Shown here: positions 37,946 to 49,724 of the stretch, piece by piece
Layout: the number at the start of each line of letters is the position of its first letter
Numbering within the stretch: position 1 is the first letter of the stretch
NCBI RefSeq assembly: GCF_019931145.1
Contig: NZ_JAIOUV010000002.1
Coordinates: forward strand, 124,001-188,000
DNA from: Marinicella meishanensis
GTDB taxonomy: Bacteria > Pseudomonadota > Gammaproteobacteria > Xanthomonadales > Marinicellaceae
DNA length: 64,000 nt
Direction: 5' to 3'
The notes under the pieces: model-generated
The model's database searches: none
What the model saw: the letters and a program-made list of their open reading frames with translations, nothing else
Told to the model about the DNA's origin: nothing
Program-made: the position numbers and the translations under genes

Positions 37946-38938
37946 ATGACCAACAAGATTCCATTGCACATCGAAACCCCCAACAACGCCGGCTCCAAAG
38001 TGGCTGGCGCCAAAGAATTGGGGGCCAACAAAACCGGGCGCAATCGGGCCACTTTTGACACCGATGCCCCGCGTTTGCGCAAACCCGATTGGATTCGGGT
38101 GCGCATCCCCACCGGCAACGCCGTGCAAAAATTGAAAAGCAAGTTGCGCAGCAGCTCCTTGGTCACGGTCTGTGAAGAAGCGTCTTGTCCCAACATCCAC
38201 GAATGTTTTGGCAAAGGCACCGCCACCTTCATGATCTTGGGCGAAGTGTGTACCCGCCGTTGTTCGTTTTGTGATGTGGCCCATGGCCGCCCCTTGCCAC
38301 CGGATCCCAACGAAGCCGAAAACCTGGCCCAAACCATTGCCGACATGGGCTTGAAATACGTGGTCATCACTTCGGTGGATCGCGATGATTTGAAAGACGG
38401 TGGTGCACAACATTTCGTCGATTGCATCAGCGCCGTGCGGGAAAAAAACCCCGGCATCCAGATCGAAATTCTGACCCCTGATTTCCGCGGTAAAGGCCGC
38501 ATGGACAAGGCCTTGGAGATCCTCGCGCAAAGCCCACCGGATGTGTTCAACCACAACCTGGAAACCGCCTACGCGCTGTACAAAGCGGTGCGGCCGGGCG
38601 CCGATTACCAATGGTCGCTGGATTTGCTCAAAAAATTCAAAGCCCAACACCCTGACATCCCCACCAAATCAGGCATCATGGTGGGCCTGGGAGAAACCTT
38701 TGAACAGGTGCAAGAAACCCTGCAACACCTGGCCGACCATGACGTCGAAATGATCACCATCGGCCAATACCTGCAACCCACCCAGGGCCACCACCCGGTG
38801 CTGAATTACTGGACTCCGGATGAGTTCAAAGCGATTGAAGAATATGGCTACACCCTGGGCTTCAAACACATCGCCGCCGGCCCCCTGGTGCGCTCCAGCT
38901 ACCACGCCGACGTGCAAGCACACGAAGCGGGTGTGTGA
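37946..38938 (+). CDS. lipA: Lipoyl synthase
   Basis: A 330-residue radical-SAM enzyme that inserts two sulfurs into octanoyl groups. It has the auxiliary cluster motif in [12 protein letters not shown] and the radical-[11 protein letters not shown] (CxxxCxxC), plus [14 protein letters not shown] and VMVGLGET-like segments. The ATG at 37946 is the family start. The stop codon TGA at 38936-38938 lies inside the 6-bp target duplication of the mobile island that follows, so the gene stayed intact. Confidence 0.96.
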
Positions 38939-38939
38939 G
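38934..38939. repeat. Left target-site duplication TGTGAG
   Basis: TGTGAG directly before the left terminal sequence TGTCAATTC. The identical hexamer stands directly after the far right end, at 49719-49724. Confidence 0.75.
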
Positions 38940-38940
38940 T

Positions 38941-39020
38941 GTCAATTCCAATGATCATTTGGACTGAACAATGCTAATTTGTACTGTACAACGCTATCCT
39001 GTACTGTACAACGTTATCTT
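38941..39020 (+). repeat. Four imperfect 20-bp tandem units at the left end
   Basis: Phased units start at 38941, 38961, 38981 and 39001; a fifth begins at 39021 with ggactga. Units 3 and 4 (gtactgtacaacgctatcct type) differ at two positions. Unit 2 shares the ggactg start, and unit 1 is the terminal repeat itself. They look like an array of transposase-binding sites. Confidence 0.7.
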
Positions 39021-39026
39021 GGACTG

Positions 39027-39425
39027 ATGAGCGCCGAGCTGCTCAAACTCTCCTATTTCCCAGATGATGGTCGAATATGGAGGGTTGAGTGGGTTTATGA
39101 CATTAGATACAACCTGGCTGTCCCTTCAGAATCAGTTTTTGTTGCTGCAATTGCTCCCCTGACCAAAGAAGCTCAACAACTATATGAGTCCGGAATTCAG
39201 GAAAATATCAAACAATTCTACAGGGCCAACCTGGTTGAAAAAGATGCTCTTAAGGAAATAGAGGTTGGGGTTGGCCAGTCTGCTCTGATTGACATCGGTT
39301 CACTATGGAAGAATGGAGTTCTTATAAATTCAAATGTAGGTGTAAAAGATACATTTGACATAGTGGTTGATGATGCACATTGTATCCCGTCAGCATCATG
39401 TGGACCAAATGGGCTAATTAACTAA
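39027..39425 (+). CDS. Unknown protein at the left end of the mobile element
   Basis: A 132-residue protein starting MSAELLKLSYFPDDGRIWRVEW. No signal peptide or membrane segment is seen. It is probably a real gene because a diverged copy with about half its residues conserved lies at 40914-41203, including IWRVEW, ESGI, VGQS and LIDIGSLW. The ATG context (actgATGA) is the same in both. There is no good ribosome site. It belongs to no family I recognise. Its position between the terminal repeats and orfA suggests a passenger or accessory gene of this element type. Confidence 0.55.
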   Translation: MSAELLKLSYFPDDGRIWRVEWVYDIRYNLAVPSESVFVAAIAPLTKEAQQLYESGIQENIKQFYRANLVEKDALKEIEVGVGQSALIDIGSLWKNGVLINSNVGVKDTFDIVVDDAHCIPSASCGPNGLIN

Positions 39426-39470
39426 GAGACACTTTCGGTTCATTGTAAACTCTAGAAACAGGAGCAAACA

Positions 39471-48458: not shown

Positions 48459-48569
48459 ATCTCTTAAACTCAATTGATAAAGAACTGGCATTGTTGATGA
48501 TCAACACTGATTCAGGCCAGTGAAGAATCAAGAAGAAGTAAGAAGATTGAGAACGCGACGGTCAAATAA

Positions 48570-49055
48570 ATGAAGTACAACATCAAAGACATAGAAATTG
48601 ACACCACATTAAAAGTGGTTAAACACAAGCACCTGGATACAGAGCTGAAAGGATTAAACCTGAAATTTTTTCTGACCCTGGTCAAACATTACCCGAAAGC
48701 TGTTCGTGCTGACACACTGGAAAACGAAGTTTGGAAAGGCAAAGTGGTCAGCTCCGAAACAATCAATAAACGATATTCTCTACTCAGCAAAGCTTTGATT
48801 GAAGAAATGGGGCAAGCTGAATTGATAAAATCTCTTGGTGACAGAGAATACCAATTACTGGCACAACCCATAGAGATAAAAGCAGTTAATGAATTTCCAC
48901 CTTTGTCGATCTTCAAAAATCGAAAAATTTTATTGTTTACTCTTGTATTAACCGCTCTATTGATTGGAGCCTACTTAATGTTTCAGCAAAAAGATGAACG
49001 TCCTGTTTTGATTGATCCGATTTCCGGTAAAAAACTCATCGCTCCGGAAGATTAA
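48570..49055 (+). CDS. ToxR/CadC-like membrane-bound winged-helix regulator
   Basis: A 161-residue protein. Residues 1 to about 95 resemble the OmpR/PhoB-type winged helix: LKFFLTLVKHYPKAVRADTLENEVWKGKVVSSETINKRYSLLSKAL, ending SLGDREYQLL. One membrane segment lies at about 116-135 (ILLFTLVLTALLIGAYLMF), followed by a periplasmic tail of only about 25 residues. The architecture is that of ToxR/CadC transcription factors with a minimal sensor. It is divergent from the three-gene hydrolase operon, its most likely target. Convergent with the next gene. Confidence 0.75.
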   Translation: MKYNIKDIEIDTTLKVVKHKHLDTELKGLNLKFFLTLVKHYPKAVRADTLENEVWKGKVVSSETINKRYSLLSKALIEEMGQAELIKSLGDREYQLLAQPIEIKAVNEFPPLSIFKNRKILLFTLVLTALLIGAYLMFQQKDERPVLIDPISGKKLIAPED

Positions 49056-49079
49056 ACATCCAATAGGGTGAATAAGTGT

Positions 49080-49493
49080 TTAAGTAGCGTGTCTTGTTTT
49101 GCGGTACAAACCGATGTCTTGATTTTTCATGAGCATGGTCTTAATGAATATATTTCTCTCTAACCATATGACTTCCAAATCATAAACGCAGAAAGAATAC
49201 CGGTTAGGATCCGTTGCCCATTCGCCCTTTTCCTGAACATGCACTTGTGTGAACAGTTCATTATCATTGCCCCACCTACAGAAAATTAAATATAGATATG
49301 TAGCTCCTTCATGGAAAATGGCAAAAGAAGCTGTTGTACTCCAATCTATAGGTGTCTTTGAAATAATTCGGTTTAATTGATTTGAAAAAAGATCTTTTCG
49401 AACTTCACTCTCTGTTGCTGAAATCGTGTAAATTTTTACAACTGAATTATTAAGCCATTCTTCTTTTGATTTGATATGCCGTTGTTCAAACAT
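49080..49493 (-). CDS. Unknown island protein
   Basis: A 137-residue protein starting MFEQRHIKSKEEWLNN, with no signal peptide or membrane segment and many aromatic beta-type stretches (YLYLIFCRWGND, SFCVYDLEVIWLERNIF). No family is recognised. It is the last gene before the right end of the island and lies convergent with the regulator. AT-rich like the rest of the cargo. Confidence 0.5.
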   Translation of the reverse strand: MFEQRHIKSKEEWLNNSVVKIYTISATESEVRKDLFSNQLNRIISKTPIDWSTTASFAIFHEGATYLYLIFCRWGNDNELFTQVHVQEKGEWATDPNRYSFCVYDLEVIWLERNIFIKTMLMKNQDIGLYRKTRHAT

Positions 49494-49718
49494 AGCTCAC
49501 TCATATAAATGAAAACGGATACGATAAAAAGTGAACTGAATATTTGGCCAGTGAAGAATATGGAAATTCATAGAAATTACTCATTCAATAGAGCTGTCAT
49601 TTCCAATAATTTTTTCTTCAATTCATATAGGTAATGCCTGAAAATAGTAGATATTACATTCCGTACAATCTATCTCTATAAAAATAGCTGCCAGTCCAAA
49701 ATAGCTTTAGAATTGACA
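49494..49718 (+). repeat. Outer right end of the island and non-coding lead
   Basis: No gene. The last about 57 bases (gtacaatctatctc ... tagaattgaca, 49662-49718) match the inner right end at 40860-40910 and, inverted, the left end at 38940. The part before is AT-rich without features. Confidence 0.7.
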
Positions 49719-49724
49719 TGTGAG
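49719..49724. repeat. Right target-site duplication TGTGAG
   Basis: Identical to 38934-38939 and directly outside the right terminal GAATTGACA. Removal of the island plus one copy would restore lipA ...gtgTGTGAGctgaaaccc. Confidence 0.75.

Follow-up and report, generated by a model that had tools for sequence, protein, structure and literature searches.

The lipoyl synthase gene (lipA) of Marinicella meishanensis is followed at its last codon by an island of 10,779 bp with matched ends and a repeated flank, and the question that this locus raises is what kind of element moved the island there and how it came to lie at the very end of a conserved gene. The window analysed here is the whole stretch of 64,000 nucleotides at positions 124,001 to 188,000 of contig NZ_JAIOUV010000002.1, and coordinates refer to it. 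An initial annotation, made from the letters of the window, had described a composite mobile island bearing the ends of an IS3-like element. Here we report that the island is very probably a remnant, decayed and non-autonomous, of a family of Tn7-like transposons whose target is the 3' end of lipA.

The left end (LE), TGTCAATTC at 38940, occurs once in the window, and the right-end motif GAATTGACA occurs twice, at 40902-40910 (inner) and 49710-49718 (outer). The hexamer TGTGAG, which has seven plus-strand occurrences window-wide, abuts the outer ends only, and CTGATG stands next to the inner right end at 40910. The LE pairs with the outer right end over 27 nt (81%) and with the inner one over 28 nt (82%); given the ends, chance agreement of a six-base flank amounts arithmetically to about 1/4,096. 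An end profile was built from 19 ends of other genomes (13 left and 6 right), typed from their loci, and its three best sites on both window strands were 38940 (37.4 bits), 49718 (29.9 bits) and 40910 (24.2 bits), with the fourth-ranked site at 13.7 bits and the best of 20 two-mer shuffles at 20.1 bits. The matched ends, the flank on both outer sides and its absence at the inner right end are where the initial annotation had placed them, and the ranking by foreign ends is independent support for these positions. The initial annotation was also right in seeing a mobile island whose flanks are duplicated where lipA stops. The guanine-plus-cytosine content of the island is lower than that of its surroundings: the island has 35-50% per 1-kb bin (39 to 50 kb), the preceding 5 kb have 52-56%, and the following 4 kb have 53, 46, 52 and 54%. 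The window copy has the TGT/ACA ends and repeated putative transposase sites that are a feature of Tn7-like transposons; the repeats, four of 20 bp arranged head-to-tail beside lipA (by eye), are putative TnsB-binding sites.

The nature of the family is seen in eight relatives that are complete at lipA (L039, L041, L040, L042, L043, L045, L105 and L106), whose hosts are Chromobacterium, Aquitalea, Methylobacter and two members of the order of the window. Their layout is lipA, LE, tnsE reading inward from the lipA-proximal left end, cargo, and then TniQ, TnsC, TnsB and TnsA encoded inward from the far (right) end. All four of the latter are present in seven of the elements, and L045 has whole TniQ and TnsC, a partial TnsB and TnsA separately on the same contig. 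A Pfam check, made on L039, returned PF06527, PF05621, PF08722 and Mu-transpos_C for the core. Clustering of six complete and two incomplete elements left TnsE, TniQ, TnsC, TnsB and TnsA as the only common genes. TniQ is 288-364 aa long, the smallest relatives measure 8.7 and 8.9 kb, a small complete one in Chromobacterium vaccinii being 8.86 kb, and a TnsF-like gene was not detected in the lipA elements: the frames after TniQ in an Acinetobacter relative, taken as TnsF from their place, had no match in the eight elements at E 0.1, and the TniQ of the same relative matched 8/8. Duplications of 5 bp flank all seven relatives in which both ends are readable, namely GTGTA (L039), TAAAC (L041), GACTG (L040/L091), GATTG (L042/L093), TAAAA (L045/L092), TCGCT (L105) and GTCGA (L106). 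The TnsB proteins of seven lipA elements form one clade with support 98/98, which, as expected, would fit one origin of these elements. At two further loci (L128 and L129, in G1139 and G1100) an intact TnsE lies at lipA, with no TnsA, TnsB, TnsC or TniQ within about 17 kb after it.

Where checked in the relatives, the gene after TniQ is cargo and encodes a GHKL ATPase in L040, a C5 methylase in L042 and DndB in L045. Cargo that looks defence-like was seen as a block of methylase, GHKL ATPase and a 563-aa protein in the lipA element of G010 (L018:2421-8018), as DndB with a PAPS-reductase-like protein beside tniQ (L045:16485-19370), and as DruA beside tniQ in an element at comM (L127:9194-10387).

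The position of these insertions is narrowly constrained. The first base of the LE lies 26-29 nt past the RSSY[HF]AD codons of lipA in 15 of the 16 loci measured, the end patterns of three of them (L048, L051, L052) having been set by hand, and the lipA stop falls inside the LE in 10/16. The tnsE side faces lipA in 16/16 loci, which were located via tnsE. Three loci found after this count are excluded from it: the first fitting TGT is at 28 in L119 and at 24 or 26 in L118, and an RSSYHAD-type lipA motif was not found in L122. The LE piece directly at the lipA end recurs in G009, G010 and G023. A contig scan with the tnsE gene gave 15 loci in Chromobacterium, Aquitalea, Methylobacter, Methylomonas, Glaciimonas, Marinicella and others, with lipA immediately before tnsE in 13 (exceptions L047 and L049). 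In the order of the window, 9/398 genomes had a tnsE match, seven at lipA (the window's own, G009, G010, G017, G023, G324 and G346), one at comM (G004) and one without lipA in the available stretch (G236). Of 398 genomes drawn from the phylum, seven besides the window's own gave a match at E 1e-5 or below; L118, L119 and L122 lie at lipA, whereas L117, L121, L123 and L124 lie at comM. The wider TnsE family is divided between lipA and comM, and the closer relatives are at lipA.

Some lipA tails attracted separate notice. In G020 (L084) lipA runs into LE-like sequence (TTCCAAAATTATTTGCGACTGAACAATGCTTGTTGCGACTC) with no tnsE visible after it, and the lipA tail of G028 (L083) is similar but weaker (both by eye); these are perhaps left ends retained as host gene tails. 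In G004 (L063), GTCAATTC after lipA may be an end scar (by eye). At the Glaciimonas locus L049, part of an inner left end occurs together with a relic of tnsE, and no lipA was found beside them.

The gene at the left end is read as a probable TnsE because a nine-member profile of the lipA family (A3) matches a protein of the comM element in G972 (E 1.9e-75), and this protein matches Pfam TnsE_C with 46.7 bits at a cut-off of 26.7. The intact homologues are 578 aa (G010) and 585 aa (G023) long. In profile comparison with hhalign, the family and the comM-type G004 protein align across 547 columns (97.7% probability); against a Tn7-type TnsE the score was 35.4 (E 0.0012), above all 30 shuffles (maximum 23.6). 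TnsE_C itself had one match in 369 genomes of the class of the window and none in 14 control genomes. The TnsE tree was long-branched and left the lipA and comM site labels unresolved. A sequence search of the PDB returned two chance-level matches with the TnsE alignment and none with the single protein. Among 72,556 plasmid records, in which the hosts are probably poorly covered, no full-length lipA-type TnsE was found; six held partial relatives at 24-30% identity, four of them predicted to be conjugative, and the TnsB search on plasmids was too broad to discriminate. Divergent TnsE proteins near the left end are described for Tn6022-like elements in PMC10293859.

Could the ends belong to the insertion sequence (IS) on the left side of the island, as the initial annotation had it? 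An IS3-like transposase acting on the left end of its own element and on a far-off copy of the right end, and so mobilising the cargo as one unit, would account for IS genes between the left end and the inner right end and for partial matches to IS3-family models; we nevertheless find it scarcely credible. The left 1,971 bp of the island were searched against 33 genomes of the family of the window, and 8/33 matched, including the window's own. Query positions 442-1924 (window 39381-40863) have a 99% copy in G007, without the island's ends, and a 78% match over most of their length in G021; positions 1-441 match G009 (76%) and G010 (74%), and further genomes gave shorter matches to either piece. 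Because the pieces recur separately across genomes, the IS is independent of the LE with the gene start. The IS has ends of its own, TGTA..TACA at 39381 and 40863, so that the outer ends of the island are not IS ends and an IS3 composite transposon was rejected. Such ends stand at lipA alongside TnsABC, and the LE with the tnsE start lies at lipA in four other genomes (G009, G010, G023, G017) with no IS within contig reach; the separate IS copy and these end-bearing relatives refute the composite in its main point. The IS3/IS481-like element is a passenger and not the source of the island ends. Its orfA is HTH_Tnp_1 and its broken orfB is HTH + rve, the latter scoring closer to the IS481 model than to the IS3 model and under the cut-off of both. 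By eye, the IS end motifs ATCATTTTGGACC resemble the transposon end repeats GATCATTTGGACTG, and no clear flanking duplication is seen in the window or in G007; inside orfB, positions 39962-39996 form a perfect inverted repeat (17-nt arms, 1-nt loop). A quite different objection is that the preference for lipA reflects survival, insertions elsewhere having been lost and lipA being merely tolerant, with no target recognition. Several copies are indeed decayed or lack TnsABC nearby (the window, L128, L129), and the LE can close the lipA frame, but 15/16 insertions fall within a 4-nt spread in a single orientation across beta- and gammaproteobacteria, and almost identical elements of Chromobacterium differ by 3 nt in their position between two species. 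We regard survival as a very unlikely explanation of the pattern.

Within the Tn7-like reading, the history of the window copy (Table 1) can be told in two ways. Two insertions at the same site are inferred because the right end is present twice and so is the start of tnsE, in diverged forms, the second tnsE relic lying directly against the inner right end. An older element would have supplied the outer right end, TGTGAG, the cargo and the tnsE relic; a later insertion at the same lipA site would have brought the present LE, the tnsE start and the inner right end; IS insertion and deletions would afterwards have removed the transposition genes and the older left end. One rearranged element of the same family could have given a similar picture if, for example, its own right end attacked the left region and duplicated the end and the tnsE start. 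The inner right end passes into tnsE sequence precisely at its terminus (CTGATGACC), which does look like a strand-transfer product; the two tnsE starts are, however, clearly different in the alignment, and over 47 nt the right ends differ by 13%. Less divergence would be expected from a recent duplication inside one element, and a single rearranged element appears the less likely history.

Table 1. Features of the lipA island and its borders, in window coordinates
Positions	Strand	Feature	Basis
37793..38938	+	lipA (lipoyl synthase), target gene; listed frame, true start possibly further in	RSSYHAD codons end 28 nt before LE
38934..38939	+	left TGTGAG copy, contains lipA stop TGA	sequence
38940..39028	+	LE: TGTCAATTC, then four packed 20-bp repeats (38949, 38969, 38989, 39009; by eye)	comparable LE in 15 further lipA loci
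39027..39380	+	tnsE 5' part, 118 codons, cut by IS	72% identity to residues 1-119 of intact 578-aa G010 protein
39381..40863	+	separate IS3/IS481-like IS; orfA 39471-39827, orfB 39809-40408, then broken	99% copy in G007; own ends
40864..40910	+	inner right end, taken as end of second, lipA-proximal element	87% identical to 49672-49718; end profile
40914..41227	+	relic of a second, older tnsE 5' part; stops and frame changes, no LE of its own	alignment
41225..42265	+	cargo serine hydrolase, beta-lactamase fold family PF00144	family match
42839..44174	+	nested IS256-family IS, transposase 42933-44138; 35-nt inverted repeats, 74% paired	family match
44453..45454	-	cargo PF00144 serine hydrolase	family match
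45442..46710	-	cargo PF00144 serine hydrolase	family match
46707..48491	-	cargo PF00144 serine hydrolase (594 aa)	family match; best relative in the family's other genomes 35% identity
48570..49055	+	cargo, possible winged-helix regulator with membrane segment (weak; segment by eye)	PF00486 at E 0.093 only; no family at E 0.001
49080..49493	-	cargo, 137-aa frame without assigned function	frame list, family scan
49672..49718	+	outer right end	pairing with LE; end profile
49719..49724	+	right TGTGAG copy	sequence

Several observations weigh against a Tn7-like remnant homing to lipA. TnsA, TnsB, TnsC and TniQ are absent among the frames of 38940-49718, and the sole TnsB-like gene found in the genome of the window (98% complete) is only 26% identical to the comM-type query. 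No duplication is visible around the inner element, whose separate insertion we infer. The Aquitalea right end was not found and its duplication is unreadable. Compared directly with TnsE_C, 2/9 members of the lipA TnsE family gave a match, the best at E 0.053 and below significance, and the hhalign match to Tn7-type TnsE, which covers 74 columns in a portion of the C-terminal region, had a probability of only 20%. The end in G017, counted among the 16 loci, lies 71 nt from the lipA motif (44 nt past the stop), and the loci were found through tnsE, so that insertions having lost tnsE fall outside the sample. With termini fixed at TGT/ACA, the window duplication is 6 bp, against 5 bp in the seven readable relatives. 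The initial annotation had taken six bases as atypical and suspected a different enzyme; it was right in that the enzyme would not be an IS3 transposase, but 6 bp also exceeds the Tn7 norm of 5 bp given in PMC11406308. A 5-bp duplication altered by one base at one of its junctions would be indistinguishable from it. No empty site was found among 30 lipA loci of the family of the window, of which 29 could be read at the 3' end. Judged by eye, 24 of these carry no intact LE, but none resembles the right flank of the window, and downstream of lipA no neighbouring gene is shared except for two matches at 31-33%; the comparison is uninformative because no relative is close enough for conserved sequence after lipA. 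The 5-bp and 6-bp readings predict the same empty site, and the end of lipA in an island-free strain of the species would be expected to read gtgTGTGAGctgaaaccc.

Apart from the island, the genome of M. meishanensis holds further TnsA/TnsB/TnsC-like frames of a different Tn7-like type (G000:C3:12678-14087, L103), of which TnsB was matched and the others were recognised by eye.

By analogy with Tn7, TnsA and TnsB would cut and join the ends, TnsC would link them to a selector, and this selector (TniQ, TnsE or both) would read the conserved coding end of lipA, which would let the gene survive; the left end often provides the stop codon. TnsE is known as a selector of replicating, above all conjugal, DNA. 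In the lipA elements it is a candidate for reading the home site because it is, besides TniQ, the only candidate shared by them and sits directly at the lipA-proximal end. It is possible, and we propose it tentatively as the less probable outcome, that TnsE, alone or with the short TniQ, came to select a chromosomal home site by its sequence, which would be lipA here and comM in related elements; TniQ alone is the main alternative. According to PMC10293859, TnsF reads comM in Tn6022 and a short TniQ is a hallmark of a partner selector.

An attachment site at lipA for Tn7-like elements was not found among the titles and abstract starts listed by a literature search that covered few subscription papers, and the words 'lipA' and 'lipoyl' are absent from the main texts, supplements aside, of PMC10293859, PMC8649781 and PMC11406308. 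With this family, the home sites of Tn7-like elements come to include the 3' end of a gene that is widely conserved. Its core is very small, five genes with no detected TnsF or long TnsD, which makes recognition by TnsE and a short TniQ directly testable, and the closing of the host frame by the LE suggests how elements may enter the end of a gene without killing it.

Among known systems, the IS3 and IS481 families are those near which the nested IS belongs; to our knowledge, they have no TnsA, TnsC, TniQ or site-specific insertion. TGT/ACA termini are common to Tn7-like ends and IS481, according to PMC11406308. The Tn6022/AbaR-type elements at comM share TnsA, TnsB, TnsC, a short TniQ and a divergent left-end TnsE far from the other genes, as PMC10293859 describes them, and the lipA TnsB clade stands beside five comM TnsB proteins. 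The two differ in that the former combine a comM target with TnsF, whereas the lipA family targets the 3' end of lipA, leaves the gene whole and has no detected TnsF. Elements at comM with TnsE homologues were also met among the searched genomes; TnsE follows TniQ directly, with no gene between, in three of them (L034, L131, L132), the neighbour of TniQ is DruA in L127, and the Methylomonas element (L108) has a longer TniQ of 544 aa. From Tn7 at glmS the lipA elements differ in their TniQ of 288-364 aa as against the long TnsD, in the 6-bp duplication of the window as against 5 bp, and in the gene-proximal end, which is the left one here and the right one in Tn7 (PMC11406308). With Tn7 they share the TGT/ACA-type ends, the packed sites at the gene-proximal end, TnsE, and insertion in a single orientation at a set distance from the conserved 3' coding end of a gene.

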